Of a DNA stretch of 33,474 nucleotides, positions 3,901-27,915 are shown piece after piece. Below the pieces are notes generated by a model. The model ran no database searches. It was not told where the DNA came from and saw nothing but the letters and a program-made list of their open reading frames with translations. The stretch spans positions 1 through 33,474 of the forward strand of contig NZ_JAHKRR010000015.1 in the NCBI RefSeq assembly GCF_018863395.1. Reading direction: 5' to 3'. The DNA is from Sinomicrobium weinanense (GTDB lineage Bacteria > Bacteroidota > Bacteroidia > Flavobacteriales > Flavobacteriaceae). The number at the start of each line of letters is the position of its first letter. Position 1 is the stretch's first letter. Made by a program: the position numbers and the translations under genes.

Positions 3901-3911
3901 TTTAAAAGGCT

Positions 3912-5105: not shown

Positions 5106-5122
5106 CTTTATCGATTATGGTT

Positions 5123-5166
5123 TTTAGCTTAGCAAGGCCAATTATAATTGGCCTTGCTAAGCTAAA
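5123..5166 (-). other. 44-bp perfect palindrome between peptide and propeller genes
   Basis: The sequence from 5123 to 5166 is its own reverse complement (arm begins TTTAGCTTAGCAAGGCCAAT, centre TATA). In RNA it would form a very stable hairpin 23 bases after the peptide stop codon. It has no T-run after the stem on the minus strand, so it is not a classical terminator. A 3' stabilising or attenuating hairpin fits better. The right module has an unrelated hairpin at the same place. Confidence 0.85.
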
Positions 5167-5189
5167 GTTAATGGATGCATTACTATATG

Positions 5190-6497: not shown

Positions 6498-6542
6498 TTG
6501 TTTTATATCGAATTTTTGCAATTTTTTAATATTAAGTATAAA

Positions 6543-8519
6543 ATGAAACAAACCTACTTATTATTTCTCCTCTTTCTAATAGTATTGAGTTCTTGCAAAA
6601 ACAATAGTCAAAGGGAATTGGAGTGGGCATTGGGCTTAGCAGGAGAAAACAGAGATGAATTGGAGAAAGTATTAGAGCACTATTCGAAGGCAGAAGAAGA
6701 TAGTTCAAAATATAAAGCTGCATGCTTTTTAATTACAAAAATAATGCCTTATGAGACTTATATGGATACTCCAAATTATCGTAAAATGAAGGTGTTAGGT
6801 GAGCAAATAAAAGACTTGATTAGAGATTATGGACAAACCATTGATAAGGACAGTTTAACGAGAAGAAATCAACTGGTAACCGAAATGATTAAGGAATATG
6901 AAAATAAAAATGGTAAAATAATAGATGCTAATGCACTTATGAGGAAGGACGTTGAAACCCTATCCTCTACATTTCTTATTGAAAATATTGAATATGCTTT
7001 TAAAGCATGGGATTTGCCTTGGGCCAGGACGTATAATTTTCAGGAATTTTGCGAATATATATTGCCTTACAGAAGTGGAAAGCAGAGGCCCGAGCCTTGG
7101 CGTAAATTTTTTTTTGAAGAATTGACTTCTTTTAGAGAAGGTTTAAAGGGAGAGACTGATCCCGTTGAGGTCTGTAACAAACTAAACACTTTTTTGACAA
7201 AAAGAAAATTTATGTGGTCACAAGCCTTAGATCATGCACCTCAATTCTTAAGTGGGCCTTTTATGTATGAATGCAAGGTTCATGGAAATTGTGAAAGTAT
7301 GTCTAATCTTGTTGTGGAAGCGATGCGATCTATTGGAATATCGGTTACTGAAATAATTTATAATAAATATGGGCATGTGAGTCAAAGTCATCAAACAAAT
7401 GCTGTTCTTGCATCAGACAGAAACTGGAAATTGTTCGATCCCTTAACAGAATCCCCTGCAGGTGAAAGTGCTCCTGGAGCTAGTGCGACTAAGATATATA
7501 GAAGAAGACTCATTAAAAGAGAGGATTTAAATAATGCTGCTCTTCAAAAATTACGACTTTTTGGATGGGATGACATTACAAGTGAAGTAACTAAGGCCTA
7601 TGATATTCCTGTCCGTTTGACAAGCCCCATATCAAGCTCTAAAGAAATAGTGTATTTGTGTATTTTTAACCGGAACCATAGAAATGCTTGGGAGCCTATT
7701 GATTGGACGTTAGTCAAAAACGATTCAGTAACCTTTAAAGATATAGGAGGGAAGGGTGTAGTATACTTAGCCATGATTGAAGATTCTAATGGAGGATTAA
7801 TTTCTGTGTCTAACCCTTTTATATTGCATGAGGATGGTCGTCAGACATATATTGTCCCTCAAAAAGAGAGAGATACCATGAGATTACTAAGAAAATATCA
7901 TCCAAAAAATGATTTTTTGGGACAAACAATTGGAGGGGTGTTTCAGGCATCAAATGACAAAGAGTTTAGGGACAAGGTTGACTTATACCAAATTCAAGAT
8001 ACACTTAGATTGATAAACCATGAAATATCAATTAAAATGCCTACCAAGTATCAGTATATACGTTATTTATTCCCTAAAGAGAGTCCAGGAAATATAGCCA
8101 AAATAGAAATCAAAGGAGGTGGTGGAGAAAGACTAAGCGGGAAAATAATGACAGATAAAAAAAATGTAGAAACCCCATCTATGAAAAATGCTTTCGACGG
8201 TGATCCTTTGAGTTTTGTCTATACGGGATATCAGGAGGATGGACAATGGTTAGGGTTAGATTTAGGAGAGCAGAAAGAGATAAAGTCAATTGTATTTTGC
8301 CCCAGGACAGATAAAAATGATATATGGCCTGGATGTATTTATGAATTACTTTATTGGGATGGTCAATGGATCTCTCTTGGGAGAAAACAGGCGTTTGATG
8401 ATTATCATATAACTTATAATGAGGTTCCCGAAGGAGCGCTTTTTTGGCTAAGAAACCATACTGAGGGTAGAGAAGAAAGGATTTTTACCTATGAAAATCA
8501 AAAACAGGTATGGTGGTGA
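6543..8519 (+). CDS. Transglutaminase-like lipoprotein with C-terminal discoidin-like domain
   Basis: A 658-residue lipoprotein from ATG 6543, preferred over the upstream start at 6498 because MKQTYLLFLLFLIVLSSC gives a clear lipobox with Cys18. The N-terminal third is helical ('ALGLAGENRDELEKVLEHY'). A transglutaminase/cysteine-protease-like core follows with a plausible triad: Cys250 in 'GNCESM', His283 in 'SHQTNAV' and Asp299 in 'KLFDPL'. The C-terminal part (about 420-658) is a galactose-binding/discoidin-like sandwich ('GQWLGLDLGEQKEIKSIVF', 'CPRTDKNDIWPG', ending 'RIFTYENQKQVWW'). Such proteins are exported surface or periplasmic lipoproteins that may cleave or bind glycan-linked peptide; the substrate is unknown. 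It is paralogous to 21451-23403 and to the fragments at 24507-25378 and 32649-33338. It stands alone on the plus strand with a long upstream region. Confidence 0.8.
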   Translation: MKQTYLLFLLFLIVLSSCKNNSQRELEWALGLAGENRDELEKVLEHYSKAEEDSSKYKAACFLITKIMPYETYMDTPNYRKMKVLGEQIKDLIRDYGQTIDKDSLTRRNQLVTEMIKEYENKNGKIIDANALMRKDVETLSSTFLIENIEYAFKAWDLPWARTYNFQEFCEYILPYRSGKQRPEPWRKFFFEELTSFREGLKGETDPVEVCNKLNTFLTKRKFMWSQALDHAPQFLSGPFMYECKVHGNCESMSNLVVEAMRSIGISVTEIIYNKYGHVSQSHQTNAVLASDRNWKLFDPLTESPAGESAPGASATKIYRRRLIKREDLNNAALQKLRLFGWDDITSEVTKAYDIPVRLTSPISSSKEIVYLCIFNRNHRNAWEPIDWTLVKNDSVTFKDIGGKGVVYLAMIEDSNGGLISVSNPFILHEDGRQTYIVPQKERDTMRLLRKYHPKNDFLGQTIGGVFQASNDKEFRDKVDLYQIQDTLRLINHEISIKMPTKYQYIRYLFPKESPGNIAKIEIKGGGGERLSGKIMTDKKNVETPSMKNAFDGDPLSFVYTGYQEDGQWLGLDLGEQKEIKSIVFCPRTDKNDIWPGCIYELLYWDGQWISLGRKQAFDDYHITYNEVPEGALFWLRNHTEGREERIFTYENQKQVWW

Positions 8520-9072
8520 ATAAATAGGGATAAAGGAAGAAAATAGATAAATTAAAATATAGGAATCGCTTAAAGGAGGGAATATCGAAATAGACTTTGA
8601 AGATGCTATTTGTATAAGATGGATTGAATTTTATATACTTGACTTGAGTTTTTGATTATAGTTCTTCATCTGGGTTTTTAGAATTCCATACTAATCAATA
8701 AAGCTACGGCTGTAATATTGGAGTAGTATTGCGCTTTGAAAAATAATTGTATTTTTTATATTAAAATTTTTGGTTTTAGCTTTTTTAAACTTGATTTTTA
8801 TAAATCCTATATGGATCTAAATCAGCTACTTGTGAAAATTCTGTTTTACCGAAAGGATGGAAGAATCTTTACTTATGAGAATGATATTCAGATCTGGTGG
8901 TAATAGGTGTTTTATAGGTAAATGTATTCTATGACAAATGTAAATTTAACATATTAACTAATGTTCCTAGTAAAAATATTTTTAAATTGGTGCATGTTTA
9001 AAATATATATTATGAATAAATAGATTACAACAATTCCCTCCCCTGAATACTTATGAAAACCCTACATGAACT
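8520..9072. other. Intergenic region with a remnant of a discoidin-tailed gene
   Basis: This 550-base stretch holds no intact gene. From about 8845 to 9072 it matches the region before the intact O-antigen ligase gene (about 25320-25553), including the tail of a discoidin-type gene and the following spacer. The part before 8845 shows nothing I can name. Confidence 0.6.
8845..8903 (+). pseudogene. 3' remnant of a transglutaminase/discoidin lipoprotein gene
   Basis: The last 17 or so codons read RKDGRIFTYENDIQIWW followed by TAA. This matches the conserved C-terminus 'ERIFTYENQKQVWW' of the intact gene just upstream, and even better the end of the pseudogene at 25378 ('ERIFTYENDTQIW'). Sequence upstream of about 8845 does not continue the homology. 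It is the deleted stub of another copy, lying in the same position before the O-antigen ligase fragment as the fuller pseudogene does before the intact ligase. Confidence 0.75.
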
Positions 9073-9584
9073 ATGGCAAGATGCAAAACTTTTATCGACG
9101 CTATATTATTAGGTGCCATTTGTCTGCTTTTGACCGTATTGGCTTCTATAAATATCCCATATTTAATAAATTCGACACAAACAGGAAAGTCTGTTTTTTT
9201 CTTGTATAGTGTCATTTTCATACTAACCCTATCCCTTGGAAAATTCTTGTTTTCCCCCTTGGCAATACGCATCAGGCTTATAGATGTGTGTTTGTTGATC
9301 TTGTTCTTCTATATATGGATTAATAGATATTGGGTTCAGTCTGTTTCTGTCTTTTCTTTAAAATATTATGAATTAATAGGATTATCTTTTTTATATATAG
9401 CTTTAAGGAATATCTCTTTCAAGGCAATCCCTTACTTTTTACTATCCGTATCCTTATTTGGTATACTACAAGCAGTCATTGGCTTTGCGCAATTATTGGA
9501 GAATATTCCTTCCAATCGTGCCGGTTTTAAAATGACAGGGAGTTTTTTTAATCCGGGACCTTTTGGCGGTTTTTTGGCCATAGT
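9073..9584 (+). pseudogene. O-antigen ligase/PglL-like protein, truncated N-terminal part
   Basis: The first 171 codons match the first 171 codons of the intact 643-residue gene at 25554, with the same start context (ATGGC after 'catgaact'). They include the first membrane segments and the family motif 'TGSFFNPGPFGGFLA'. At 9584/9585 homology stops abruptly within 'FLAIV'; the frame then reads eight foreign codons to a TAG at 9609. The rest of the catalytic periplasmic loop and the TPR domain are missing, so it cannot be functional. The junction joins it to the 3' end of a propeller gene, showing a deletion or recombination event. Confidence 0.85.
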
Positions 9585-9776
9585 GCCTTATACAATGGAA
9601 ATAATATAGAAAATGATCATGGGAAAGAAGTGTATGTTATTAATTTTCAGGGTGAAGTTGTGAGAAAATATGTTTTAGATCAGGAACTTGTAAAGTTTGA
9701 TATATACAAAGACAAGTTTATATATGGGTTGAATATGAAAACGGAGCCTAAAATATTTAAATTCGAAATTATATGA
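9585..9776 (+). pseudogene. 3' remnant of a 6-bladed beta-propeller (BF3164-type) lipoprotein gene
   Basis: Sixty-three codons and a TGA, in a frame different from the preceding ligase fragment, encode a propeller-like tail: 'EVYVINFQGEVVRKYVLDQE', then 'YKDKFIYGLNMKTEPKIFKF'. The '(F/Y)..D.....IYGLN....P.I..F' ending is typical of BF3164-family propeller lipoproteins of Bacteroidota. It has no start and lies six bases before the thioredoxin-like lipoprotein gene. The lost propeller gene was therefore probably the cotranscribed upstream neighbour of the central operon, the same propeller-then-CxxC order as in both outer modules. Confidence 0.65.
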
Positions 9777-9782: not shown

Positions 9783-10313
9783 ATGAGAAAATTAGTTTTT
9801 ATACTATTTTTAGTATTATTTGCTTGTGAACAAGAAAATAATACATCTGATGAACTCAACCAAAAATGGAGGGGGAAAAAGGTTTCTTTTACAGATGATC
9901 TTGAACCATTTGTGACTCAAGCTAACAGAAAATCTGATTCCGGAGTGAAAAATCGTACTGTAGTCGCCTATTATGACGGAAACTGTTCCTCTTGCTATAA
10001 GGAGTTATTGAAATGGATTCATGTAAAAGAAGATTTTATTGAAAAAGGATATCATGTAGATTTCAAGTTTATTTTATCCGGATATAATAAGGCTCTTGTT
10101 AAAGGATACTTGAAACAAGTTAAATTTCCCTTAGAAGATGTATTCTATGCTTCTAAAAATAGTTTTATAGAAAAGTATTCTTTTTTGACAGAGATAAACT
10201 ATGAATACTCTTCCATGTTGCTAGATAGAAATAATAAAATATTATTAATAGGAAACCCTACAACATCAGAGAGGATATTGAAAATTTTCACTGAATTGGT
10301 CAGACAGGATTGA
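9783..10313 (+). CDS. Thioredoxin-like CxxC lipoprotein
   Basis: A 176-residue protein with a lipoprotein signal (MRKLVFILFLVLFAC, Cys15). A thioredoxin-like motif follows: 'VVAYYDGNCSSCYKELLKW' places the CxxC pair at Cys68 and Cys71 right after a beta strand. Later segments ('DVFYASKNSFIEKY', 'SSMLLDRNNKILLIGNP') fit the remaining strands and the hydrophobic edge of the fold. It probably acts as a membrane-anchored periplasmic thiol oxidase, isomerase or reductase. It is the first intact gene of the operon running into the RND genes and directly follows a propeller tail. It is only distantly similar to the CxxC lipoprotein at 29176. Disulfide formation in the four-Cys peptides is an attractive but inferred role. 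Confidence 0.7.
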   Translation: MRKLVFILFLVLFACEQENNTSDELNQKWRGKKVSFTDDLEPFVTQANRKSDSGVKNRTVVAYYDGNCSSCYKELLKWIHVKEDFIEKGYHVDFKFILSGYNKALVKGYLKQVKFPLEDVFYASKNSFIEKYSFLTEINYEYSSMLLDRNNKILLIGNPTTSERILKIFTELVRQD

Positions 10314-10399
10314 TTTCATTAAAAAATGTGTGTAATTATATATGAAATAAATCGGAACTCAGACATGAAGGTGAATTTCAATATGTAAAAAAACTAAAT

Positions 10400-10852
10400 A
10401 TGAAAAATAGTGGTAAATTCAAAAAACTATTATTGCTGTTTATAACTTTAGCATCTTGTAAATCAAATTTTGTTGAAGTAAAGAATCCTGAAAAAATTAA
10501 TTTAAAACAACAGTGTCCATTAATTAGTCTCAAAAAAACGGTAAATTACACTAATGAAGTAGATGCATTGAGCAATGAGTATAAAAATGAAGTCATTGAA
10601 ATTGAATCCACGGAAGTAGACTCTTTAAAATATGATGTTATACTAGACCTTAAAGAATCTAGCCAGTATTTATGGTTACTTAAAAGTGATTTAGAAAGAA
10701 ATACGGACTCCATTCTTATTCATTGTATAGACTCCACTAAAGGAGTAGAATCTGAATTTGATATTGATAATTGCCAAATAGAAATTATGGAAACCGAGTT
10801 TTATACCACTGGAGAGCCAAAAGTGTCAAAGTCCAAAACTATACAATTTTAA
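10400..10852 (+). CDS. Lipoprotein of unknown function
   Basis: A 150-residue protein with a clear lipobox (MKNSGKFKKLLLLFITLASC, Cys20). The mature part is acidic and rich in Glu, Asp, Ser and Lys, with predicted beta strands and two further Cys near residues 39 and 109-124. I do not recognise the family. It lies 86 bases after the thioredoxin-like gene and 4 bases before the TTG start of the RND adaptor gene (31 before the ATG), so it belongs to the same operon and may be an accessory subunit of the export system. Confidence 0.6.
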   Translation: MKNSGKFKKLLLLFITLASCKSNFVEVKNPEKINLKQQCPLISLKKTVNYTNEVDALSNEYKNEVIEIESTEVDSLKYDVILDLKESSQYLWLLKSDLERNTDSILIHCIDSTKGVESEFDIDNCQIEIMETEFYTTGEPKVSKSKTIQF

Positions 10853-10856
10853 GAGA

Positions 10857-12062
10857 TTGGGAAATAGTCAAATCCACAATGATATGGCAGGGTTAGGAAT
10901 AAAAAGGTTTTTTATAAATAAAGGAAGTTCCTTTTGGAAAATTAGGTTTTCAATAATCTTCATTTGGTTATTTTCTTTTTGGGGTGTGATGACAAGTTGC
11001 TCCGATAAAAAGAATAAGGAAGAAGTCTCTGTTGATAAAAAGCAATATCTTCAGGAAAAGAATGATGTAGGGATAGTAATCCTGGAAAGACAATCTTTCG
11101 ACAAGGAATTATTATCTAATGGAAAACTGACAGCTAATCAAAAAAATGTGCTTAAATTCAAAGTTGATGGGAATCTAAAAAAACTTCTCGTTAAAAATGG
11201 AGATGTGATAAGAAAAGGCCAACCTTTAGCCTATCTGGACGATTTCGAATACCAACAAGAACTGAACAGTTCAGAAATTTCTTTTAAAAAGGCCCGGTTG
11301 GAATTTGAAGATATGTTGGTAGGACGTGGGTATGATTTGCAGAACAAGGAGAATATTCCTGAAAATATTTATGAAATGGCTTCTATTCGCTCTGGTTACA
11401 GCGAAGCAGAAAATCAATTAGAAAATGCCAAATTCGATGTCAACTCTACGGTTTTACGTGCTCCCTTTAGTGGTAAAGTTGCTGATATAAAATTCAAGGA
11501 ATTTGAACAAGTTAATGCGGGTGAAGAATTTATGAGTTTAATTGATGATTCTGTGTTTGATGTAGAATTCAATTTGATCGAATCCGAAGTGAATCAGATT
11601 AAAAAGGGGGAAGATGTCGAAATACAACCTTTTAATACTGGTAAAGGATACTTTGGGAAAATTATAAGTATCAACCCGATCGTTAAAGAAAATGGAATGG
11701 TAGATATAAAAGCCCGTGTACAAAACGATGGACCACTTATGGAAGGAATGAATGTAAAGGTGATCATTCAGAAAAATGTTCCTAATCAATTTGTTGTCCC
11801 TAAAGATGCTGTGCTTATTCGGGACAATCAGGAAATCCTGTTTAAATATCAAAAAGGAAAGGCTTACTGGACTTACATACAAACCATTTATGAAAATAGT
11901 ACCTCTTATGCTATTATCGCCGATCCCAATAAAAATAGTGCTCATTTACGGGAAGGGGATTCGATTATTGTATCAGGAAACTTAAACCTAGCACATGATA
12001 GTGAAGTTACAGTTAAATCAACTTTTGAACCTTCTCTTGCTAAAGAAACCCAGACGAAATAA
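10857..12062 (+). CDS. RND efflux periplasmic adaptor (membrane fusion protein), lipoprotein
   Basis: The adaptor of a tripartite RND pump, linking inner-membrane permease and outer-membrane channel. The longest frame opens at TTG 10857; ATG 10884 gives 392 residues with a hydrophobic segment ending 'WGVMTSC' (Cys39 from that start), suggesting a lipid anchor. Then follow a first lipoyl half ('LKVD'-like 'VLKFKVDGNLKKLLVKNGD', 'KGQPLAYLDD'), a short helical hairpin ('SFKKARLEFEDM' to 'YSEAENQLENAKF'), the second lipoyl half ('VLRAPFSGKVADIKF', 'GEEFMSLID'), and beta-barrel and membrane-proximal domains ('GMNVKVIIQKNVPNQFVVPK'). This is the canonical HlyD/AcrA order. The helical hairpin is short, as in CzcB-like or Bacteroidota adaptors. 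It is followed 5 bases later by the permease gene. Confidence 0.9.
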   Translation: MGNSQIHNDMAGLGIKRFFINKGSSFWKIRFSIIFIWLFSFWGVMTSCSDKKNKEEVSVDKKQYLQEKNDVGIVILERQSFDKELLSNGKLTANQKNVLKFKVDGNLKKLLVKNGDVIRKGQPLAYLDDFEYQQELNSSEISFKKARLEFEDMLVGRGYDLQNKENIPENIYEMASIRSGYSEAENQLENAKFDVNSTVLRAPFSGKVADIKFKEFEQVNAGEEFMSLIDDSVFDVEFNLIESEVNQIKKGEDVEIQPFNTGKGYFGKIISINPIVKENGMVDIKARVQNDGPLMEGMNVKVIIQKNVPNQFVVPKDAVLIRDNQEILFKYQKGKAYWTYIQTIYENSTSYAIIADPNKNSAHLREGDSIIVSGNLNLAHDSEVTVKSTFEPSLAKETQTK

Positions 12063-12067
12063 TATTT

Positions 12068-15000
12068 ATGGTTAAATTTCTTATCCATAAACCCATTGGC
12101 TCTTTAATGACTACCCTGGCAATTGTTATTTTGGGACTAATTGCCATAACCCATGTTCCAATATCTCTGATGCCCGACTTAGATATTCCCGAGATAACCG
12201 TGCAACTTAATGCGGATAACATGTCGGCCCGGGAATTGGAAGATGCTATTGTAACCCCCCTGCGTAACAGTCTGATGCAGGTTAGTCACCTTGAGGATAT
12301 TCAAAGTGAGGCCTCTAATGGAAATGCTATTATACGTCTTCATTTTACCTATGGTACCAAAACGGACTATGCTTTTATTGAAGTTAATGAAAAGGTCGAC
12401 AGAGCTATGGCTTCCTTACCACGGGAATTGGAACGCCCCAAGGTAATCAAGGCCAGTTCTTCTGATATCCCGGTTTTTTATTTAAATCTAACTTTAAAGC
12501 ATGGGCAGGCTATAAAACCTAACGGAAAAGTATCCCGTGAATTTATAGATTTCAACCGTTTTGTCAGTCAGGTCGTGCGAAAACGTATCGAACAAGTACC
12601 TGAGGTAGCAATGGTTGATATTAATGGTTTGGTATATTCAGAAATTCTTGTCCTCCCGGACCATAATAAACTAAGAGCGTTGGGCTTTAGTCTGGACGAT
12701 TTGGAAGCCGCTATTAAAAAACAGGATATTGAAGTAGGGAGTATTTTGGTCAAGGAAAGTCAGTATCAGTATAATCTGCGGTTAGGTACTAATCTGGGGA
12801 ATGTCCGAGATATTGAAAATATCTATCTCCAAAAAGATGGTAGAGTTTTCCAAATTAGGGATTTAGCAGAAGTGAGGGAACAACCTCAAAAGCGTACCGG
12901 TTTAGTGCTTTCTGATGGTAAGGAAGCAATAAGTATGGCCTTGATCAAGCAGAGCGATACTCGAATGAAAGACTTGAAAGAATCCCTGAAAGTTCTTATG
13001 GTCCAAATGCAGGAAGACTATCCTGATATTGATTTTTCAATCACTAGAGATCAGACCAGACTATTGGACTATTCCATAAACAATTTGGCCCAAAGTTTGT
13101 TGTGGGGTATCCTTTTGGCTTTTGCCATTATGTTCCTATTCCTTAGGGACTTGAAATCCCCGGTTCTTATCGGGATCAGTGTACCTGTTTCCATGATTGT
13201 CTGTATCCTCTTTTTCCATCTCTTGGATATATCCATTAATATCATTTCGTTGTCAGGCCTTATTCTTGGTACTGGCTTAATGATAGATAATTCTATCATC
13301 GTTATTGACAATATTACTCAGTATCGAGAAAAGGGATATTCGCTTTCTGATGCATGTGTTTTAGCCACTAATGAAGTATTTAAGCCTTTATTAAGTTCTG
13401 CGCTTACGACTTGTGCAGTTTTTATTCCATTGATCTTTTTAAGCGGTATTGCCGGGGCTTTGTTTTATGATCAAGCCATGGCTATTACGATTGGGTTATT
13501 TGTTTCCCTAATAGTCTCTGTTACTGTTTTACCAGTTTTATACCGGTTGTTTTATTTAAAGAATAATACTAAAGATAGTAAAATTACCAGGTTAATTCGT
13601 AGATTAAATACCCTTGATTATAATCGATTTTATGAAAGAGGTTTCCGATGGACTATGCGAAAGCAAACTATGGCATTCGTTATTTTCACCATTTTGGCAG
13701 TATGTACTATCGTTTTATTTTCAATCCTTCCCAAAAATCGTATGCCGGAGCTTTCGACCCCGGAAACCCTCCTTGTTATAGACTGGAATGACCCTATTCA
13801 TGTGGAAGAAAACAAACGAAGGCTATTGGAATTGATCGAATCATTACAAGAAAATTTAGAAACTTATCATTCGCATGTAGGACAGCAGCAGTTTTTATTG
13901 GACAAGAACAGCGAAGCAAAAAGTTCCGAAGCCACATTATATCTTCAGGCAGAAAGTGAAGAAAAACTTCAACGGCTTGAAAATGATATAATGCATTTTA
14001 TAACGGAAAACTATCCACGTTCGATTGCCGAATATAAGGAGGTTGATAATGTCTTTAATATGATATTTTCAGATAACTCCGCTCCGCTTACTGCGAGGCT
14101 TAGACCTGTGGAAAACATTGTACAAAACGAAGAACTTCAAATATTATGGCAGGAACTGAAGAGAGAACTTCCGGATGTTGATTTGTCGCCCATAGCTTGG
14201 GAAGAATCCCTTACTTTCAGGGCTAATGGGGAAAAAATGATAGCCTATAATGTTTCAGAAGATAGACTTAGTAATACTCTCCAAAGTGCCTTTAATGAAA
14301 AGGAAGTACTTTCCATAATGAACAACCAGGAATTTGTTCCGGTTGTGTTAGGAGGTGAAGAAAACAACATCTCTAAGATCTTACAGGAAACAATGGTAGG
14401 AGCTGATGATAGTACATATTATCATGTCAATGAATTTTTAATTTCAAGCAGAGGTTTGGATTTAAAAACAGTAATAGCGGGAAAAGAAGGAGAATATTAT
14501 CCTCTGGATTTAGAAGTAGAAAGTTCCAGTGCATCTCAAATTATAGAGAAAATAAAAAATGTTATAGATAAAAACTCGTTTTACGATGTATCTTTTAGCG
14601 GAAGCATTTTTAAAAATCAACAGCTTATTCAGGAGTTGCTTATCGTGCTGAGCATTACTCTGATCCTGTTATATTTTATTTTGGCTTCTCAGTTTGAATC
14701 GTTAACTCTACCTCTGATTATTCTTATCGAAATACCGGTTTCCATTTCAGGAACTTTGTTCTTGTTGATTTTATGTGGTATGGGACTTAATTTGATGTCT
14801 ATGATTGGTATTGTGGTCATGTGTGGTATTGTTATTAATGATTCCATTCTAAAGATTGATACGGTCATCCAGTTACAAAAACAGGGATACGGTTTGTTAA
14901 GGAGTCTACTTATCGCAGGACAACGAAGGCTAAAACCCATACTAATGACCAGCTTGACTACTATTTTAGCTCTATTGCCTGTTTTGTTCACTGGCGGTCT

Positions 15001-15145
15001 TGGAGGAGAATTACAAACTCCCTTGGCAATAGCCCTTATTGGTGGGATGTTGTTGGGTACAGTAGTCAGTCTATACCTAATCCCACTTTGTTATTATCAT
15101 CTTGTAAGGAAAAAGGCTTATGTTTATAAAAAAGGGGAAATATAG
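12068..15145 (+). CDS. RND transporter permease, first of two
   Basis: A 1025-residue inner-membrane pump of the AcrB/CzcA superfamily. The N-terminal helix ('MTTLAIVILGLIAITHVPISLMPDLDIPEITV') and the first porter-domain start are typical. TM4 carries 'GTGLMIDNSIIVIDN', giving Asp407 but Asn408 where AcrB has a second Asp. TM10 has 'GIVINDSILKID', placing Asn924 where AcrB has its proton-relay Lys940. The proton pathway is therefore not the AcrB one, although an acidic residue in TM4 remains. The gene starts 5 bases after the adaptor and its 3' end overlaps the OMF gene by 26 bases. The substrate is unknown; context (signal peptidase, peptides, CxxC lipoproteins) suggests a peptide. Confidence 0.9.
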   Translation: MVKFLIHKPIGSLMTTLAIVILGLIAITHVPISLMPDLDIPEITVQLNADNMSARELEDAIVTPLRNSLMQVSHLEDIQSEASNGNAIIRLHFTYGTKTDYAFIEVNEKVDRAMASLPRELERPKVIKASSSDIPVFYLNLTLKHGQAIKPNGKVSREFIDFNRFVSQVVRKRIEQVPEVAMVDINGLVYSEILVLPDHNKLRALGFSLDDLEAAIKKQDIEVGSILVKESQYQYNLRLGTNLGNVRDIENIYLQKDGRVFQIRDLAEVREQPQKRTGLVLSDGKEAISMALIKQSDTRMKDLKESLKVLMVQMQEDYPDIDFSITRDQTRLLDYSINNLAQSLLWGILLAFAIMFLFLRDLKSPVLIGISVPVSMIVCILFFHLLDISINIISLSGLILGTGLMIDNSIIVIDNITQYREKGYSLSDACVLATNEVFKPLLSSALTTCAVFIPLIFLSGIAGALFYDQAMAITIGLFVSLIVSVTVLPVLYRLFYLKNNTKDSKITRLIRRLNTLDYNRFYERGFRWTMRKQTMAFVIFTILAVCTIVLFSILPKNRMPELSTPETLLVIDWNDPIHVEENKRRLLELIESLQENLETYHSHVGQQQFLLDKNSEAKSSEATLYLQAESEEKLQRLENDIMHFITENYPRSIAEYKEVDNVFNMIFSDNSAPLTARLRPVENIVQNEELQILWQELKRELPDVDLSPIAWEESLTFRANGEKMIAYNVSEDRLSNTLQSAFNEKEVLSIMNNQEFVPVVLGGEENNISKILQETMVGADDSTYYHVNEFLISSRGLDLKTVIAGKEGEYYPLDLEVESSSASQIIEKIKNVIDKNSFYDVSFSGSIFKNQQLIQELLIVLSITLILLYFILASQFESLTLPLIILIEIPVSISGTLFLLILCGMGLNLMSMIGIVVMCGIVINDSILKIDTVIQLQKQGYGLLRSLLIAGQRRLKPILMTSLTTILALLPVLFTGGLGGELQTPLAIALIGGMLLGTVVSLYLIPLCYYHLVRKKAYVYKKGEI

Positions 15146-16631
15146 GATCTTACTCTATACGGTTTTTTTCTGTACTGTATCTGGGGTGTTGGCACAGGGT
15201 AATATAAATAATCCAACGAAAACACTGACCATGGAAGAAACTTTGGAAATGGCCTCTCAAGAGTCTTTGGATGCTTTTAAGGCCAAAAGACAGTACGGGG
15301 CGGATTATTGGAGATACCGTTCTTTTGAAGCTCGGTTGCTTCCCCATGTGGACTTTGAAATGGAACCTTTGACCTATAATCGATCCTTTATACAACGTTA
15401 TGATCCCGACAATAACATTGATGTATATCGTCTGCAACAAAACCTCAATACTTTTGCTCAAATTTCAGTGAGTCAGAATATTATGGCAACAGGGGCTAAA
15501 ATATATCTGAATTCCAGCTTTAATCGCTTAGTTAATTATAGTGAATCCAATATAGAAAATTACAGCACTACTCCGATACGCATAGGGCTCAATCAACCTA
15601 TTATGGCTTTTAATGAATTAAAATGGCTTAATAAAACGGCTGAAATGGAGTATGAAAAAGCCAAAAAGGATTTTCTTTACGAACAACAACAAATCTATCT
15701 TAGAACCCTTTCCATGTTTTTTAGGTGGGCCCTTGCACATACTCAGGTGAAAATAGCTGTGGAAAATAAGGAAAATGCACACAGGCTATATAATATTGGG
15801 AAAAAAAGATATGATTTGGGTTCTATCGAAAAGGATGAGCTTTTAAACCTGGAGTTAGATGATTTTACATCCACCACAAATTTAAACCAAGTCCAACAAC
15901 AACTACAAGAAGTAATCTCTGAACTCAATCTCTATCTCAACAGGGACGATCTTTCGGAGTATACTCCGGAACTTCCCGAAATGGTATCTCACCTTAAAAT
16001 ATCGGTAGAGGAAGCTAGGGAATACGCTAGTCAAAACAACCCGAATTTACTTAATATAAACATCCGGAAGATCAATGCTGAAAAAAATTTAGACCAGACT
16101 ATTAAGGATAATCGGTTTGACTTGTCTATTAACGCAAGTTATGGGCTTAACCAACAAGCAAACACTTTTGCTGATGCTTACAGCCACTTTTTGGATCAAC
16201 AGATTGTGGCTGTGCAGTTTAGCATGCCTCTACTCGATTGGGGAGAACGGAAAGGGAATATACGAGTAGCCAGGATGACTAAAGAGGTTCAAGATATAGA
16301 GATCTCTCAAGATGAAAACGACATTCATCGACAACTGGAACTCAAGGTTAGTAACTTTAACCTACAGGAAGAGCAGGTAATGGCTGCTTTAAGGGCTCGG
16401 GAAATTTCCCGAGAATCCTATAAAATTACTGAAAAGCGGTTTTTATCTGGAAAAGTAGATTTATTGCGATTGTCGTCAGCAAGGGAGGCTTGGCAAAATG
16501 CCTCAGAACAGTATATTGAGAGTTTACAGAATTATTGGAATTATTATTACGAGGTACAACAGCTTACATTATATGATTTTATTCATGATTCTGCTTTAAG
16601 TAAAAACTTTGATAAATTACTTGAAGAATAA
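15120..16631 (+). CDS. TolC-like outer-membrane efflux protein
   Basis: The outer-membrane channel of the tripartite pump, 503 residues. The signal peptide 'ILLYTVFFCTVSGVLAQ' is followed by two structural repeats of long amphipathic helices and beta strands. These include 'TLTMEETLEMASQES', 'LEYEKAKKDFLYEQQQIYLR', then 'VEEAREYASQNNPNLLNINI' and 'FSMPLLDWGERKGNIRVAR', the conserved 'P.L..G' element of the second repeat. No lipobox Cys is seen. The start overlaps the end of the permease gene, indicating translational coupling. The signal peptidase I gene begins 14 bases downstream. Confidence 0.9.
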   Translation: MFIKKGKYRILLYTVFFCTVSGVLAQGNINNPTKTLTMEETLEMASQESLDAFKAKRQYGADYWRYRSFEARLLPHVDFEMEPLTYNRSFIQRYDPDNNIDVYRLQQNLNTFAQISVSQNIMATGAKIYLNSSFNRLVNYSESNIENYSTTPIRIGLNQPIMAFNELKWLNKTAEMEYEKAKKDFLYEQQQIYLRTLSMFFRWALAHTQVKIAVENKENAHRLYNIGKKRYDLGSIEKDELLNLELDDFTSTTNLNQVQQQLQEVISELNLYLNRDDLSEYTPELPEMVSHLKISVEEAREYASQNNPNLLNINIRKINAEKNLDQTIKDNRFDLSINASYGLNQQANTFADAYSHFLDQQIVAVQFSMPLLDWGERKGNIRVARMTKEVQDIEISQDENDIHRQLELKVSNFNLQEEQVMAALRAREISRESYKITEKRFLSGKVDLLRLSSAREAWQNASEQYIESLQNYWNYYYEVQQLTLYDFIHDSALSKNFDKLLEE

Positions 16632-16645
16632 ATGAATAAGAAACC

Positions 16646-17845
16646 ATGAAAGATAGTTTAAACCATATGCCAAAATATTTTTCTCAGTCATGGAGGTTTT
16701 GGCTACTCTTTCTGGGAGTGGTTTTCCCATTATTCTTTGGTCTTATTTGGCTAACATTATTGCAACTTTTATTGTTTGGGGTATACAAATGTATGCTGTA
16801 CGTTACGGGGTGGATTAAAAATATGACTCTTAGAAAACTAATACGTGGTATTTTTCTTTTCTTGTGGTTGTTACTTATAAGTGTTTGTGCAAAAGTATTT
16901 TTGGTAGAGATTTATAAAATCCCGAGCAATTCTATGGAGAATACTCTGTTCTCTAATGATGTTATTTTAGTGAATAAACTTACGTATGGCCCCAAGTTAC
17001 CCAGAAGTCCTTTTGAGATTTCTTGGGTGAACCTTTTGTTTTATCTGAATGACAATGCTCGGAATGCTATGGAAGAAAATTGGTGGTCTTACCGTAGATT
17101 GGACGGAATAAGAAATGTCAAGCAAGGGGATGTCCTAGTATTCCAAGAGTCCAGAACTTTGTTTGTGATTAAGCGATGTGTTGGAGTGGCAGGGGATACA
17201 TTATCCATTATTGCTGGAAAAGTGTATACTAATAGTGAAAAATATTTTCCACCATCAACTGTAAAGAAAAAATATAATTTTAAAGTAACGAATAGGCGAA
17301 AGTTTTTTAAACGGAAGGATTCGATAATACCAAATGTATATTTCTCTGCAGGAGATGATGCTATTAATAGTTTTCAAGGAAACTTTACATATGATGAATG
17401 GGAACGAATTAGTAAGATTCCGGAAGTTTATGACTTGAAAAAAGAGCTAGATACTTATGATGCTCAAAAGGGATTATTCGCAATGCCACGGGGCTCTAAA
17501 TGGACATTAGATAATATGGGACCCTTTCTCATTCCTAAAAAAGGGCTTGAAATAAAGCTGGATGCTTTTAATTTTCATATATACAAAAAAGCTTTAGAAA
17601 AGTATGAAAAAGTTGAAATACATGAGCGTAATGGAGGTTATTTTATAAACGGAGAAAAAGCAAAATCGTATAGGTTTAAACAGGATTACTTTTTTGTCAT
17701 GGGAGATAACCGAGAGGGGTCTTTAGATTCCAGGTATATAGGTTTTATTCCGGAAGAACATATTGTAGGTAAGGTGCCATACATATTATTTTCTTATTAT
17801 CGGAGGCAATTCCGATGGAATAGGTTTTTTAAAAAATTGCTATAA
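16646..17845 (+). CDS. lepB: Signal peptidase I
   Basis: A 399-residue membrane-bound type I signal peptidase that removes signal peptides after AxA sites. Two to three N-terminal membrane segments precede the catalytic domain. The Ser nucleophile is Ser96 in 'YKIPSNSMENTL' and the general base is Lys176 in 'LFVIKRCVGVAGDTL'. Box E, 'FVMGDNREGSLDSRYIGFIP', starts near residue 350. About 160 residues lie between the Lys box and box E, a large insert also known from long Bacteroidota signal peptidases. It sits between an OMF gene and a second RND permease with spacings of 14 and 7 bases, so it is part of the export operon. The housekeeping LepB is expected elsewhere; this looks like a dedicated copy. 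The gene symbol denotes the family. Confidence 0.9.
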   Translation: MKDSLNHMPKYFSQSWRFWLLFLGVVFPLFFGLIWLTLLQLLLFGVYKCMLYVTGWIKNMTLRKLIRGIFLFLWLLLISVCAKVFLVEIYKIPSNSMENTLFSNDVILVNKLTYGPKLPRSPFEISWVNLLFYLNDNARNAMEENWWSYRRLDGIRNVKQGDVLVFQESRTLFVIKRCVGVAGDTLSIIAGKVYTNSEKYFPPSTVKKKYNFKVTNRRKFFKRKDSIIPNVYFSAGDDAINSFQGNFTYDEWERISKIPEVYDLKKELDTYDAQKGLFAMPRGSKWTLDNMGPFLIPKKGLEIKLDAFNFHIYKKALEKYEKVEIHERNGGYFINGEKAKSYRFKQDYFFVMGDNREGSLDSRYIGFIPEEHIVGKVPYILFSYYRRQFRWNRFFKKLL

Positions 17846-17852
17846 ACAGGAT

Positions 17853-20800
17853 ATGAGCCAGAAAGTTTCTACATTCAGGGTCATTACGATTTTTATTTGC
17901 TTAGCAATAGTAGGGGGAGGCTTGATTCCCCTGCTCAGTATTCAACTAGTTCCTTCTCGTTCCTTGCCCGCAGTATATGTATCTTATTCATGGCCTGCTG
18001 CTTCAGCGAAAGTAATTGAACAGAAGGTGACTTCTAAGTTGGAAGGTCTCTTTAACAGTATGAGGGGAGTGAAAGAGATTAGTTCGACCTCTCGTAAAGG
18101 GAATGGAGATATTAGTATTCAATTTAAAAAAAACACGGATATGGATGCTGTCCGGTTTGAAATGGCAGCCCTTATTCGCCAAAGTTACCCTCAAATGCCC
18201 GAGGGGGTAAGCTACCCTTTTCTTTCTTTGAGTATTCCTTCTGAAAACAATTCATCTGTTTTGTCTTATAGTGTCAATGCTAATGAAAGTTCATACTATA
18301 TTAAAAAATATGTCGATCATTATATTCTTCCCAGGCTATCTAATATTAAAGGGGTAAGTCAAGTTGGCTTATATGGTGTTTCTCCTTACGAATGGGTAGT
18401 AACATACAATGCTGATAAGTTGTCCAAACTTGGGTTGACTGTAGATCAGGTAACCCTTGCAATTAATACTTTTCTGAAAAAAGATGAAATCGGAAAGGGC
18501 ACTGAGGTTTTGTCTCAAGGGAACTCTCCTCGGGAAATTAGAATACTTTATACACATCAATCTCAGGAAGAGTTCAACTGGAACAAAATCCCTGTAGCAA
18601 AAAGTGGGGGTCGTATCATTTACATGGAAGACATTGCTTCGGTACGTTTCAAGGAACGTCCACCAAGTGCTTATTACCGAATTAATGGTTCGAATACTGT
18701 GAATTTGGTTATATATCCGGAAAAAGGGGTCAATACTATTGAACTCTCCAAAAGGATAAAGCGTAGGGTAGAAGATATTAGAAATGAACTACCTGTTGAA
18801 TATCATCTCAAACTTACACAGGATACAACAGCACATCTTATCGATGAACTGCTAAAAATACAATGGCGAACACTGTTTTCCTTAATTATTTTATTAGCAC
18901 TGTCTATTGTAATATACCGTAATACCAGATATGTTTTCGTTTTATTTTCGAGCATCTTCATCAATTTTTTTGTGGCAGTAATATTCTATTATTTACTTCA
19001 AGTAGAGTTGCAGTTATATTCCTTTGCAGGTATTACTATTTCTTTCGGTATTATCATAGACAATACGATCATTATGATGGATCACTTTCGTCATAAAGGA
19101 AACAAAAAAGCTTTCCTGGCTATTTTGGCGGCTACACTAACTACTATAGGGGCAATTACGGTAATCTTTTTACTAGAGGAATCTCAACGGATCAACCTAT
19201 GGGATTTTGCCCTGGTTATTGCAATCAATCTAGGGGTGTCTCTTTTAGTGGCGTTGTATTTAACTCCTGCTTTATTAGAGAAATTCAAAATAACACACAA
19301 AAAAAGACACTTTTCCAGAAAGCGAAAAAAACGTATTGTCTGGTTTACATCTCAGTACGAATACTTTATAATTTTTTTAAACAAACCAATGCCAAAGTGG
19401 GGACTCATTATAATAATGATTTTGGGGTTTGGTTTACCATTGCATCTAGCTCCGAAACAAATAGAATCGAAAGGATTGTTAGCAGATTTATATAATCAAA
19501 CTATGGGAAATGGATGGTTTGAAGAGAACATTCGCCCTGCTATGGAAAAGATTGTTGGAGGATCTCTACGTCTTTTTACAGAAAATGTGTTTGAAAAATC
19601 TTATTACCAGGAACCACAGAAAACAACACTTAATGTTACCGGGACAATGCCGGAAGGCAGTACCATAGAACAATTAAATAAGGCGATACTGAAAATGGAA
19701 AATTATATCGCATCTTTCAAGGAAGTAGAACTTTTTGAAACTCAGATCAAAAGTTACAATGATTCCAGAATCACCATTCATTTTAAAGACGAGTATGAAT
19801 CCGGTGCATTTCCATATGTTTTAAAAAGTCTTCTGGAAACTAAAGCAGTAAGCCTGGGGGGGCTGGATTGGAATATATATGGTGTAGGAAGGGGATTTTC
19901 CAATGCCTTGAACACAGGGTATCTCGCTGATCAGATTGTTTTGGAAGGGTATAATTATGATGAATTGTATCAATATAGTCAAAGATTACGGGATAGCCTT
20001 TTAGTCCAATCTAAAGGCAGGGTAAAGGAAATAGAAATCAACACAGGAGAGTGGTTCAGCAAAACTTTATATGAGTATCATTTGGAATTTGAACCACAAG
20101 GCATAGCTTTGGCTGGGATAACGGAATCGCAGGTTTATAATACTCTTAAAAATCAACTTCACTCGGCAAATCTGTCCCCTGTGATTAGAAATCACGAATT
20201 GCAGGAGGCAAAATTGGTCTCTGATCAACATGAACAATTTACGGTGTGGGATTTAAAGAACACTCCTGTAGATATCGATGAAAAACAATTCAAACTACAT
20301 GAACTTACTACTATAGAAAAACGAAAGACGGGTAATGATATTAAAAAAGTAAACCAACAGTATCATTTGGTTGTTGCCTTTGAGTTTATCGGTCCAAGAC
20401 TTTTGGCTGAGAAATTTAAAGAAGAAAGGATACAAGCAATTTCTAATGTTTTACCTGTTGGTTATAAGGTGTTTAAGCGTGATAATTATGGGTGGAATAA
20501 AGAAGAAAAAAAGCAATACTACTATATTTTTATTATTGTCGCGATAATTTTTTTTATATGTGCTATTCTCCTGGAATCCCTTCGGCAGCCATTGGTCATT
20601 TTGAGCATGATTCCTATTTCATTTATTGGGGTATTTCTTACTTTTTATTTTTTTGAGTTTAATTTTGATCAAGGAGGTTATGCCTCTTTTATCCTTTTGT
20701 GTGGTATTAGTGTAAATGCGGCTCTTTACATTGTAAATGATTTTAATAATTTAAAACGACACTACCCGGGACGGGATATTAGAAAATTATATTTTAAGGC

Positions 20801-21014
20801 TTATAATCATAAAATTCTCCCTGTATTTCTAACCATTATCTCTACCATAGCTGGTTTGTTGCCGTTTGTTTGGGGAGGTCAAAGGGAAGTTTTTTGGTTT
20901 TCATTTGCAGTAGGTTCTATTGGAGGATTAATTTTTTCCCTTTTGGCCATCTTATTATATTTACCTTTATTTCTAAATTTAAAGAACAAAGAAAGGAAAG
21001 TGAAAAACGATTAA
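17853..21014 (+). CDS. RND transporter permease, second divergent copy
   Basis: A 1053-residue RND permease, last gene of the operon. The N-terminus ('LAIVGGGLIPLLSIQLVPSR', then 'VSYSWPAASAKVIEQKVTSK') and the TM4 motif 'SFGIIIDNTIIMMDHF' (Asp403, Asn404) identify the superfamily. At the TM10 relay position 'LLCGISVNAALYIVNDF' has Asn955 instead of Lys. Both permeases of the operon thus share the Asp-Asn/no-Lys pattern while differing strongly elsewhere. With only one adaptor and one OMF gene, the two may form a mixed complex as MdtB/MdtC do, or share parts. No further gene follows on this strand until about 24507. Confidence 0.88.
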   Translation: MSQKVSTFRVITIFICLAIVGGGLIPLLSIQLVPSRSLPAVYVSYSWPAASAKVIEQKVTSKLEGLFNSMRGVKEISSTSRKGNGDISIQFKKNTDMDAVRFEMAALIRQSYPQMPEGVSYPFLSLSIPSENNSSVLSYSVNANESSYYIKKYVDHYILPRLSNIKGVSQVGLYGVSPYEWVVTYNADKLSKLGLTVDQVTLAINTFLKKDEIGKGTEVLSQGNSPREIRILYTHQSQEEFNWNKIPVAKSGGRIIYMEDIASVRFKERPPSAYYRINGSNTVNLVIYPEKGVNTIELSKRIKRRVEDIRNELPVEYHLKLTQDTTAHLIDELLKIQWRTLFSLIILLALSIVIYRNTRYVFVLFSSIFINFFVAVIFYYLLQVELQLYSFAGITISFGIIIDNTIIMMDHFRHKGNKKAFLAILAATLTTIGAITVIFLLEESQRINLWDFALVIAINLGVSLLVALYLTPALLEKFKITHKKRHFSRKRKKRIVWFTSQYEYFIIFLNKPMPKWGLIIIMILGFGLPLHLAPKQIESKGLLADLYNQTMGNGWFEENIRPAMEKIVGGSLRLFTENVFEKSYYQEPQKTTLNVTGTMPEGSTIEQLNKAILKMENYIASFKEVELFETQIKSYNDSRITIHFKDEYESGAFPYVLKSLLETKAVSLGGLDWNIYGVGRGFSNALNTGYLADQIVLEGYNYDELYQYSQRLRDSLLVQSKGRVKEIEINTGEWFSKTLYEYHLEFEPQGIALAGITESQVYNTLKNQLHSANLSPVIRNHELQEAKLVSDQHEQFTVWDLKNTPVDIDEKQFKLHELTTIEKRKTGNDIKKVNQQYHLVVAFEFIGPRLLAEKFKEERIQAISNVLPVGYKVFKRDNYGWNKEEKKQYYYIFIIVAIIFFICAILLESLRQPLVILSMIPISFIGVFLTFYFFEFNFDQGGYASFILLCGISVNAALYIVNDFNNLKRHYPGRDIRKLYFKAYNHKILPVFLTIISTIAGLLPFVWGGQREVFWFSFAVGSIGGLIFSLLAILLYLPLFLNLKNKERKVKND

Positions 21015-21450: not shown

Positions 21451-23403
21451 CTAATACCATATCTGTTCCCCATTTTTATACTCAAAGATTCTTTCTTGGC
21501 GGCCTTCATCAAGGCATTTTAGATATAATAAACCATTTTTAGGAACATTTTTGTATTTCAATTCATAATCTTCTGCTTTTTGTTGGCCCAAGGAAACGAA
21601 AACTCCTTTATCCACATAAAACAGCTCATAGTTAAGCCCTTTTAATACATGATTTAGATTGTTTGGAGGGGCAAATGTGATTTTTGAAACATACTGTTTT
21701 TTTTTCAAATCAATACCTTTCCAAGTAGTTGAATCATTCTCCGTAGACGGACTACTTGTTATAAAATTTCCTTCTAATTGGATCTCCTTGTTTTCAGATT
21801 CCTGGTACGACAATTTGATTTCTTTGATTGTGATAACATTTCTGGATAGAATTCTAAAATACCTGTACTTTTTTTTAATGTTCAATGGAATCTCATATGG
21901 CCTTAATTCTGGCTCAAAATCGATTTGTTCAATAGTGACCGCATCTCTAAAATCCCGATTGTTTGATGCTTGTATTAATGATCCTTTTATGCGTTTTGCG
22001 TCCTTTTCCAGTCCTTTCTTGGCCGGGTACTTTCTTTTTATTACTACATCACTGGTCGAATTTCCAGGAATAAATTCCTTTTTATTTCCATTATGGTCAA
22101 GATGGAAAGGAGTGCCAAAAGGAATTGTTCTGCCATTTTTATAAAATATCGGTTGATATACGATGTCAGTTCCCATTTTATTAAAAATCACCATATTACC
22201 TTCTATTTTCCCCCATTGCACAGGAACCCATCTTTTATTTACCCCTAAGACACTTAGGTAAGCATAATAAGTATTTTTTGGTATTTTCTCTTTTGTGATT
22301 TCGTGGCTTAGGTTAATAGTATTGAAATAATCATTTGACACATCCTTTTGTTTTACATTTCTGAATAATTGAGGTATATTTTCAAGTTTTATTCTTTTAT
22401 CTGAGATTGGGCCTTCCATATGTGTAGAAAAAGTATGCCTGTAAACTTTGGGGAGTCTTATTTTTCCACTCCAATCATCCTCAAACTTATTGTTGTTGAT
22501 ATCAGGATTATAAAACCAACTATGTCCCTTCTCCCAATATGATTCAAAATATAATGTTCTTCCCCCATATAAGAGGGCATTCCATTGATGATTATCCTCT
22601 TTATTGCCCCATGCAGGGACAAAATCAACAACCATAGGGATACCTTCAGTATTGACTATATAAGTATTAAACCAACTCTTTACAGTACATTTACCACTTT
22701 TAATTTTCATGAAATCCTTAAATTTCAAAATGGGTAGTCCCTCCGTCAATTCATAATTGAATTTGTACGTTTTATATTGCCCAAATAAAGAATCACAGGC
22801 TTTAGTAAATGGAATTGGATATAAATCCTTAAAATGATCTTCATTTTCACTTTTAAAGAAATCTCTCCAATTCTCGAGAGCCTTTCCCTGTATATGTCGA
22901 TAGGGTAAAATATATTCACAAAAGTCTTCAAAAGATACACTGTCACGGGCGTACGGGTTATTCCTCCATGAGTTATAAGCATCATCAATGTTTTTAATTA
23001 GAAATTTGCTAGTCACAAACTTGATGTCTTCCTGTACAGGTTTGGAATAAATATAGGTGTGAGCTGGGGATATTATCTTGAGGCTATCCCATAATTTATT
23101 TAACTTATTAGGATCAATGCTGTCATCTTGTTCCCATTGTGATTTGGCCATAAGGGGGATAATTCTATATTTTTTTAGGTTGGTAGTGTCATAAGAATAA
23201 TTATAGGGAAGATTAGAAATAAGAAATTTTGCGGCCTCCAATTTCATAGAATCCCCTTCTTTTTTATAGTACTCAAGAACTTTGATGAGTTCGCCTTTGT
23301 TTTTTCCACTCAGCTCTAAAGCATTTCTTATTTCGACATCATATTTATGGCAGGAAACTAACAATAGAATCCAAAAATATAGCATTGCCTTTTTATTATT
23401 CAT
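21451..23403 (-). CDS. Transglutaminase-like lipoprotein with discoidin-like tail, second intact copy
   Basis: A 650-residue lipoprotein from ATG 23403; the frame opens farther upstream at 23481, but MNNKKAMLYFWILLLVSC supplies the lipobox (Cys18). It is a diverged paralogue of the 6543-8519 protein: 'ALELSGKNKGELIKVLEYY' corresponds to 'ALGLAGENRDELEKVLEHY', and 'FCEYILPYR' is shared. The core keeps Cys239 ('SGKCTVKSW') and His272 ('NHQWNAL') with the same 33-residue spacing. The third member is Glu287 ('LYFESYW') where the paralogue has Asp299, so catalysis may be altered or lost. The C-terminal discoidin-like region ends 'RQERIFEYKNGEQIWY'. It is convergent with the export operon, with a terminator between. 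Confidence 0.8.
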   Translation of the reverse strand: MNNKKAMLYFWILLLVSCHKYDVEIRNALELSGKNKGELIKVLEYYKKEGDSMKLEAAKFLISNLPYNYSYDTTNLKKYRIIPLMAKSQWEQDDSIDPNKLNKLWDSLKIISPAHTYIYSKPVQEDIKFVTSKFLIKNIDDAYNSWRNNPYARDSVSFEDFCEYILPYRHIQGKALENWRDFFKSENEDHFKDLYPIPFTKACDSLFGQYKTYKFNYELTEGLPILKFKDFMKIKSGKCTVKSWFNTYIVNTEGIPMVVDFVPAWGNKEDNHQWNALLYGGRTLYFESYWEKGHSWFYNPDINNNKFEDDWSGKIRLPKVYRHTFSTHMEGPISDKRIKLENIPQLFRNVKQKDVSNDYFNTINLSHEITKEKIPKNTYYAYLSVLGVNKRWVPVQWGKIEGNMVIFNKMGTDIVYQPIFYKNGRTIPFGTPFHLDHNGNKKEFIPGNSTSDVVIKRKYPAKKGLEKDAKRIKGSLIQASNNRDFRDAVTIEQIDFEPELRPYEIPLNIKKKYRYFRILSRNVITIKEIKLSYQESENKEIQLEGNFITSSPSTENDSTTWKGIDLKKKQYVSKITFAPPNNLNHVLKGLNYELFYVDKGVFVSLGQQKAEDYELKYKNVPKNGLLYLKCLDEGRQERIFEYKNGEQIWY

Positions 23404-27910: not shown

Positions 27911-27915
27911 TTAAT

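Follow-up and report, generated by a model that had tools for sequence, protein, structure and literature searches.

An RND operon with two permeases and its own signal peptidase in Sinomicrobium weinanense, a probable export core for small disulfide-type peptides

Resistance-nodulation-division (RND) pumps are known for the export of drugs, metals and lipophiles, and a contig of Sinomicrobium weinanense raises the question of why an operon of this kind should encode two different RND permeases together with a signal peptidase. The window analyzed here is the whole of contig NZ_JAHKRR010000015.1 (33,474 nucleotides), within a genome of 5.36 Mb. It is proposed, with a probability of roughly 0.7, that this operon forms the central export unit of a secretion system devoted to small peptides of the disulfide type. 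Its genes, with the two lipoprotein genes preceding them, are as follows.

9783-10313, + strand: thioredoxin-like CxxC (CSSC) lipoprotein; no Pfam family at E<=0.01; CxxC invariant in an 11-row alignment of proteins chosen by a thioredoxin (Trx)-type model
10400-10852, + strand: small lipoprotein, function not assigned; no Pfam family at E<=0.01
10857-12062, + strand: MFP, the RND periplasmic adaptor (TIGR01730, 162.1 bits, cut-off 94.9; lipobox by eye)
12068-15145, + strand: RND1 permease (PF00873, ACR_tran, 566.6 bits, cut-off 28)
15120-16631, + strand: TolC-type outer membrane factor, OMF (PF02321, OEP, 110.4 bits, cut-off 22)
16646-17845, + strand: operon LepB, signal peptidase I with Ser96/Lys176 (TIGR02227, 124.3 bits, cut-off 47)
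17853-21014, + strand: RND2 permease, of the divergent subfamily that marks the system (PF00873, 346 bits, cut-off 28)

The order adaptor-RND1-OMF-LepB-RND2, with gaps of 5, -26, 14 and 7 bases, had been described in an initial annotation and was borne out by the coordinates of the open reading frames (ORFs). With an adaptor, an RND permease and a TolC-type OMF encoded together, the operon classifies as a tripartite RND efflux system; the listed start of the adaptor gene is TTG, with an in-frame ATG at 10884. An intact Ser96/Lys176 pair, also described earlier, was seen on alignment with E. coli LepB, in which the aligned Ser is taken to be the nucleophile and the Lys the base; this dyad and the TIGR02227 score identify the protein as a signal peptidase I. 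The CxxC lipoprotein gene does precede the operon as annotated, but the gene at 10400-10852, overlooked at that stage, sits between it and the adaptor gene.

RND1 and RND2 share about 21% identity over their longest match. One adaptor with two different RND permeases is also the arrangement of MdtABC and MuxABC, where MdtB and MdtC (50% identity) form an MdtB2C heterotrimer with split roles (PMC4338810, in the part available). The window pair is thus similar in composition but more divergent, and the substrates of MdtBC are drugs. To our knowledge, no signal peptidase gene belongs to MdtABC or MuxABC. The marks of the drug-type (HAE1) pump AcrB are taken to be the Asp pair D407/D408 in transmembrane helix (TM) 4 and the relay Lys K940 in TM10. 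A single TM4 Asp was found in 72/72 relatives of RND1 and 98/99 of RND2, with Asn at the AcrB Lys position in 72/72 and 99/99, and the HAE1 combination of TM4 Asp-Asp and TM10 Lys is present in neither RND1 nor RND2. In TM10, RND1 has Asn-Asp and RND2 Val-Asn; an Asp beside the Asn that RND2 lacks would fit an MdtBC-like division of labour.

Whether peptide genes travel with the pump was surveyed in the window, 22 loci with 34-59% RND2 identity and 10 distant loci selected by hand out of 67 same-phylum genomes; the controls were 40 loci in which these genomes encode other RND permeases, likewise chosen by hand, from the listed matches. The detector accepted ORFs of 45-110 residues with a signal peptide, at least two Cys and no lipobox that did not lie within a longer ORF; its cleavage site, lipobox and overlap filters were tightened after the targets had been viewed and before the controls were run. 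One of the 33 loci (G582), in which the RND2 ORF was unlabelled, was left out of the count, and the RND2 regions spanned 8.45 kb on each side, half of the 32 being clipped where the contig or the retrieved stretch ended. Small secreted Cys peptides were detected in 20/32 RND2 regions (34 ORFs in 589 kb) versus 3/40 control loci (800 kb; Fisher p 6e-7). On inspection by eye, the matches in G440, G505, G575 and G640 were spurious or doubtful, which leaves 16/32, and the three control matches looked no better than these; the true NVEALA peptides of G505 lie further out from RND2. The initial annotation had named a widespread operon without nearby peptide genes as an outcome that would speak against peptide export, and this was for the most part not what was found, with 12 of the 32 loci as the exception.

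A second set of loci came from a scan of named species with alignment A1 as query, which kept 80 of at least 579 RND2 relatives; the single RND2 protein as query had given no named relative. Gene models trained on the first set were applied to these loci (3.4 to 24.7 kb, versus 20 kb for the controls), two of which overlap with the first set (L171 is the G682 record and L181 the G783 record). LepB was matched in 33/80 named loci versus 0/40 control RND loci and the propeller model in 26/80 versus 1/40, while transglutaminase (TGase), Wzy and Trx matches were obtained in 18, 15 and 10 of the 80 loci, respectively, and in none of the 40 controls. Of the named loci, 50 extend at least 9 kb upstream of RND2, and 43 of these had one or more marker or detector matches; an RND1-type BLAST match was likewise present in 43/50 with enough upstream sequence, and both permease genes share one operon. 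On the LepB counts, an ordinary multidrug operon with a stray lepB gene was rejected. That the genes came together by chance, or by accretion within an accessory region rich in genes, and that LepB and pump have no functional link, could be read from the degenerate duplicates in the window. This is highly improbable, given the peptide survey, the gene-model counts and the LepB tree described below, and the same gene set recurs in many genera, with the order LepB-(TGase)-Wzy-MFP-RND1-OMF-RND2 in Bacteroides, Phocaeicola and Parabacteroides loci (L223, L228, L233, L237).

In G682 the order is Wzy, MFP, RND1, OMF, peptide, DUF4221, Trx, LepB and RND2, followed by a TGase gene on the other strand, and peptide, propeller, CxxC and LepB genes lie within the operon both here and in Aestuariibaculum sp. 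M13, and just upstream of it in Bacteroides cutis. Peptide genes are also found inside the operon in L169, L176 and L191 and a few kb upstream in L232, L265 with L210, and L262 with L237; in several loci they are interleaved between OMF and LepB/RND2. The B. cutis locus (L265 followed by L210), taken as continuous since the contig coordinates of the two agree, begins with repeated peptide-propeller(-Trx) units, two TGases, a propeller, Trx, LepB and Wzy, and continues with further peptides, MFP, RND1, OMF and RND2. In Phocaeicola vulgatus (L262 with L237), two NVEALA peptides are encoded 3-5 kb upstream of LepB, TGase, Wzy, MFP, RND1, OMF and RND2. Between these two peptides, L262:3621-4487 combines a Trx-model match with a DUF1573 Ig-like domain.

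The NVEALA family (PF14055) was over its cut-off in 3/295 class genomes, all three among the 11 in which a 13-row RND2 model had matches (p 4e-5); a fourth match, in G039, was below cut-off in a genome without RND2. Of 20 genomes with RND2, selected by hand among the 80 named loci, 14 had NVEALA genes, and 23/86 of these genes lay within 30 kb of RND2 versus 1.75 expected. For DUF4221, 16/54 genes over cut-off lay within 20 kb of RND2 versus 0.57 expected (28 genomes). The genome of L228 (G1090, a Parabacteroides distasonis metagenome-assembled genome) has 24 NVEALA matches, 23 of them over cut-off, and none is on the RND2 contig.

It could be argued that the pump exports another product, such as a drug, glycan or lipid, and that the peptides and propellers are inherited together as an independent module, perhaps a sensor or a complex at the cell surface. 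The Wzy_C-type protein in 15/80 named loci, the NVEALA islands far from the pump and the RND2 loci without a detected peptide would suit this explanation. It is nevertheless considered unlikely, as the other RND pumps of the same genomes are without the module (detector 3/40, LepB 0/40), peptide genes are interleaved with pump genes, and the Wzy-like family lacks the His of the O-ligase motif. That motif in WaaL/PglL is presumably H[NSQ]x9Gxx[GTY] with a conserved His; the Wzy-like proteins tied to the pump have Phe (20/21 rows) or Tyr (1/21) at this position, two rows being the same gene. With the His replaced in 21/21 rows, a normal O-antigen ligase was rejected in spite of the Wzy_C score of 63 bits, and glycosylation is therefore doubtful.

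Each arm of the window, as annotated initially, holds a gene for a four-Cys peptide with a signal peptide; both are real ORFs with four Cys after the leader.

5190-5417, - strand: PepA, precursor of a four-Cys peptide, long leader ending PAEA; outside the 8.45 kb range of the detector survey
27701-27910, + strand: PepB, precursor of a four-Cys peptide, long leader ending DANA

AxA-type signal peptidase I sites are predicted in both leaders. Neither PepA nor PepB matched the NVEALA profile (threshold 27 bits), and the window peptides were accordingly rejected as formal members of the family. Peptides of P. vulgatus, G505 and G597 score over 27 bits and do belong, and they have the same kind of leader and the same neighbours. 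Bacteroidetocins, ribosomal peptides of 42-53 residues from Bacteroidota, have a leader cut at GG (PMC8546649, in the part available), in contrast to the AxA sites predicted here, and the window peptides do not classify with them.

An even number of Cys was found in 73/78 curated cores (38 with four, 20 with six, 14 with two and one with eight) and, with nothing dropped, in 72/79 detected ORFs; the binomial p of 1e-14 or less is indicative only, since related peptides are not independent. Curation had dropped the detector hits of G440, G640, G575, L163, L174, L229 and L237, one L201 ORF and all ORFs without a parsed cleavage site, and had added 13 of 16 further peptide rows; the three left out have 4, 4 and 2 core Cys. 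The precursors have a median leader of 41.5 and a median core of 39 residues, and the predicted AxA site of many lies 19-39 residues past the hydrophobic core. Leaders were more alike than cores in 50/64 within-locus pairs (locus-level Wilcoxon p 0.004, 21 loci), and 27/69 peptides had a propeller gene within 700 bases downstream on the same strand.

Such features would also be expected of an antagonism island in which the peptides are bacteriocins, the propellers immunity proteins or receptors, and the pump either their exporter, as a sub-case of the peptide secretion proposed here, or a self-protection pump. The leaders, usually better conserved than the cores, the propeller genes behind peptides, the decayed copies in the window and a patchy distribution (8/199 family genomes, and absence from the one same-genus genome listed) all agree with it. 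Pheromone or host-signal roles fit equally, and antagonism is regarded as a possible, though not the more probable, explanation.

A LepB gene was found within 25 kb of RND2 in 10/28 genomes, the copy of G761 being broken. In a LepB tree of 58 rows, the window LepB fell in an operon-only clade of 28 rows (support 97/93). Another 10 rows make up a second operon clade (100/100); L251 and L252, first labelled as housekeeping, are among them and lie beside NVEALA genes. This second clade is weakly joined (90/42) by L250 and L253, long-branch housekeeping tandem copies. The main housekeeping clade (18 rows, 100/99) was separate, which identifies the operon LepB as a dedicated enzyme. Long leaders, with at least 18 residues between hydrophobic core and AxA, occurred in 21/27 loci with LepB versus 2/13 without (p 4e-4), with LepB status entered by hand and some clipped loci scored by copies elsewhere in the genome.

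The suggested pathway is drawn by analogy with the STII enterotoxin of E. coli, which is exported by Sec, acquires two periplasmic disulfides and is ejected from the periplasm by MacAB-TolC, which shows ejection of a peptide of this kind to be within the capacity of a tripartite pump (PMC5985334, in the part available). The likeness lies in a small signal-peptide-bearing peptide, Sec, disulfides and a tripartite TolC-type pump (same source, same part). The difference is that MacB is an ATP-binding cassette (ABC) pump that also exports drugs, while the window encodes a pair of RND permeases along with processing proteins of its own. MacAB-TolC is not known to have a signal peptidase, propeller or Trx gene dedicated to it. 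Precursors would thus cross the inner membrane by Sec, and the operon LepB would cut after the predicted AxA site, as its association with long leaders suggests; in loci that lack a local LepB, most leaders are of the conventional kind, for which the housekeeping enzyme would be enough. CxxC thioredoxin-fold lipoproteins would then form or proof-read the disulfides. Handling of disulfides is in keeping with the even Cys numbers and with the invariance of the CxxC, which agree with the earlier suggestion of a disulfide-forming lipoprotein, for which oxidation itself is a presumption. The adaptor, RND1/RND2 and OMF would finally take the peptide from the periplasm and eject it, as their gene association would allow, and the propeller lipoprotein encoded downstream of many peptides may be a specific partner: a chaperone, receptor or immunity protein.

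That the operon exports the peptides of both arms, the central claim of the initial annotation, is supported in part, by gene co-occurrence and by the placement of peptide genes within the operon of G682 and other loci. Several observations weigh against it. Gene neighbourhood by itself cannot establish a peptide as pump cargo; 12/32 RND2 loci had no peptide within 8.45 kb, and of the 50 named loci that extend at least 9 kb upstream, 7 had no match to any of the markers (peptide, propeller, LepB, Trx, TGase, Wzy). Many NVEALA islands lie far from the pump (in G1090, 0/23 near), as do all 32 DUF4221 genes of G469, G394, G537 and G575 (0/32 near RND2). No LepB is near RND2 in 18/28 genomes, and the cut of 18 residues for long leaders was chosen after the values had been seen, in a comparison that is confounded with phylogeny. 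LepB is accompanied by short leaders in G030a, G030b, G754 and L209, with G761 and L201 just under the cut, and long leaders occur without LepB in L217 and G575. Cores are more alike than leaders in G030a, L169, L176 and G436.

The remaining genes of the two arms are as follows.

705-3038, - strand: MG2-like protein of the left module (Pfam E 0.026, below cut-off)
3421-3900, - strand: broken CxxC lipoprotein gene of the left module, in two ORFs, the longer 49% identical to 29176-29637
3912-5105, - strand: DUF4221 propeller lipoprotein of the left module (PF13970, 139.3 bits)
6498-8519, + strand: transglutaminase-like lipoprotein with F5/8 domain, Cys and His kept (PF00754, 29.8 bits, cut-off 28.2; PF01841, 19.5 bits, below 23)
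21451-23481, - strand: second transglutaminase-like protein, adjoining RND2 (Pfam matches below cut-off)
25554-27485, + strand: Wzy_C/TPR membrane protein, associated in other loci too (PF04932, 63 bits)
27971-29167, + strand: DUF4221 propeller-fold lipoprotein, 60 bases after PepB (PF13970, 132.2 bits; model; PDB match 3s9j)
29176-29637, + strand: CxxC (CHGC) thioredoxin-fold lipoprotein, paralogue of 9783-10313 (structure model; CxxC alignment)
29824-32616, + strand: MG2-like large exported protein of the right module (weak Pfam match, E 0.035, below cut-off)

Each arm has the order peptide, DUF4221 propeller, CxxC lipoprotein and MG2-like protein (27701-32616 on the + strand, mirrored at 705-5417 on the - strand), and the same order is found in Flavivirga rizhaonensis (L268); the MG2 labels are weak, with Pfam scores below cut-off in both arms. 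The arms have the appearance of duplicated DNA in decay, with disrupted or shortened copies of CxxC lipoprotein, Wzy-like and transglutaminase-like genes at 3421-3900 (-), 9073-9609 (+), 8736-8903 (+) and 24687-25043 (+). The propeller, transglutaminase-like and Wzy-like partners had not been brought in by the initial annotation.

The DUF4221 proteins score 139.3 and 132.2 bits, and the one at 27971-29167 models as a propeller (predicted local distance difference test, pLDDT, 79.1), with the best PDB match 3s9j, a DUF4221 structure from P. vulgatus (TM-score 0.73). The CxxC protein at 29176-29637 models as a thioredoxin fold (pLDDT 86.5) with the CxxC at a helix start; nearly all of its 50 listed PDB matches are thioredoxin-fold, one with E<=0.001, at TM-scores of 0.34-0.49. 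The transglutaminase-like proteins, with Cys kept in 23/23 rows and His in 22/23, could by these residues be a second protease or ligase.

RND2 relatives are patchy across Bacteroidota, human gut bacteria included. The RND2 query at E<=1e-60 had matches in 8/199 family, 5/296 order and 80/395 phylum genomes, 67 of the last being listed as same phylum only, at 23-30% identity; the one same-genus genome listed had no match. Named hosts include Prolixibacter, Odoribacter laneus, Draconibacterium, Parabacteroides gordonii, Bacteroides and P. vulgatus ATCC 8482, and the closest among the 80 kept named loci is Arenibacter algicola (65% identity), so that the present host, too, is likely to be a marine member of the Flavobacteriaceae. 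In B. thetaiotaomicron, BT0662-BT0669 (an O-antigen ligase, a hypothetical protein, a 6-bladed propeller, lepB and an RND adaptor, numbered together in the expression table of PMC10434189) probably represent the same locus, judged by gene labels alone.

A broader proposal, which falls slightly short of an even chance, is that of a Bacteroidota-wide pathway in which an RND heteropump instead of an ABC transporter would secrete ribosomally made disulfide peptides in arrays, NVEALA-type and related ones, with a separate propeller partner for every peptide. A private signal peptidase would read the extended leader, transglutaminase-fold and His-less Wzy-like proteins would add processing, and gut Phocaeicola and Bacteroides would use the peptides for competition or signalling. 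If true, one of the main phyla of the human gut and the sea would gain a further route of secretion: an RND pump reserved for such peptides and equipped with a signal peptidase of its own. The way in which NVEALA peptides are exported becomes open to test, and tractable strains, P. vulgatus ATCC 8482 among them, probably hold a store of secreted peptides not yet characterised. The names NVEALA and DUF4221 occurred in no paper of the literature searched, nor did a description of the system, in a search mostly without subscription papers and bioRxiv preprints, so that one may exist elsewhere.

Distant RND2 relatives (25-29% identity) lie beside small Cys peptides in six same-phylum genomes (G531, G417, G538, G455, G496 and G582); their signal peptides are mostly conventional and no LepB is near RND2. 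Three genomes of one genus (G009, G023 and G035; 1.7-1.8 Mb) have MFP-RND1-OMF-RND2 with no LepB nearby and no detector peptide, and G009 has one weak propeller match.

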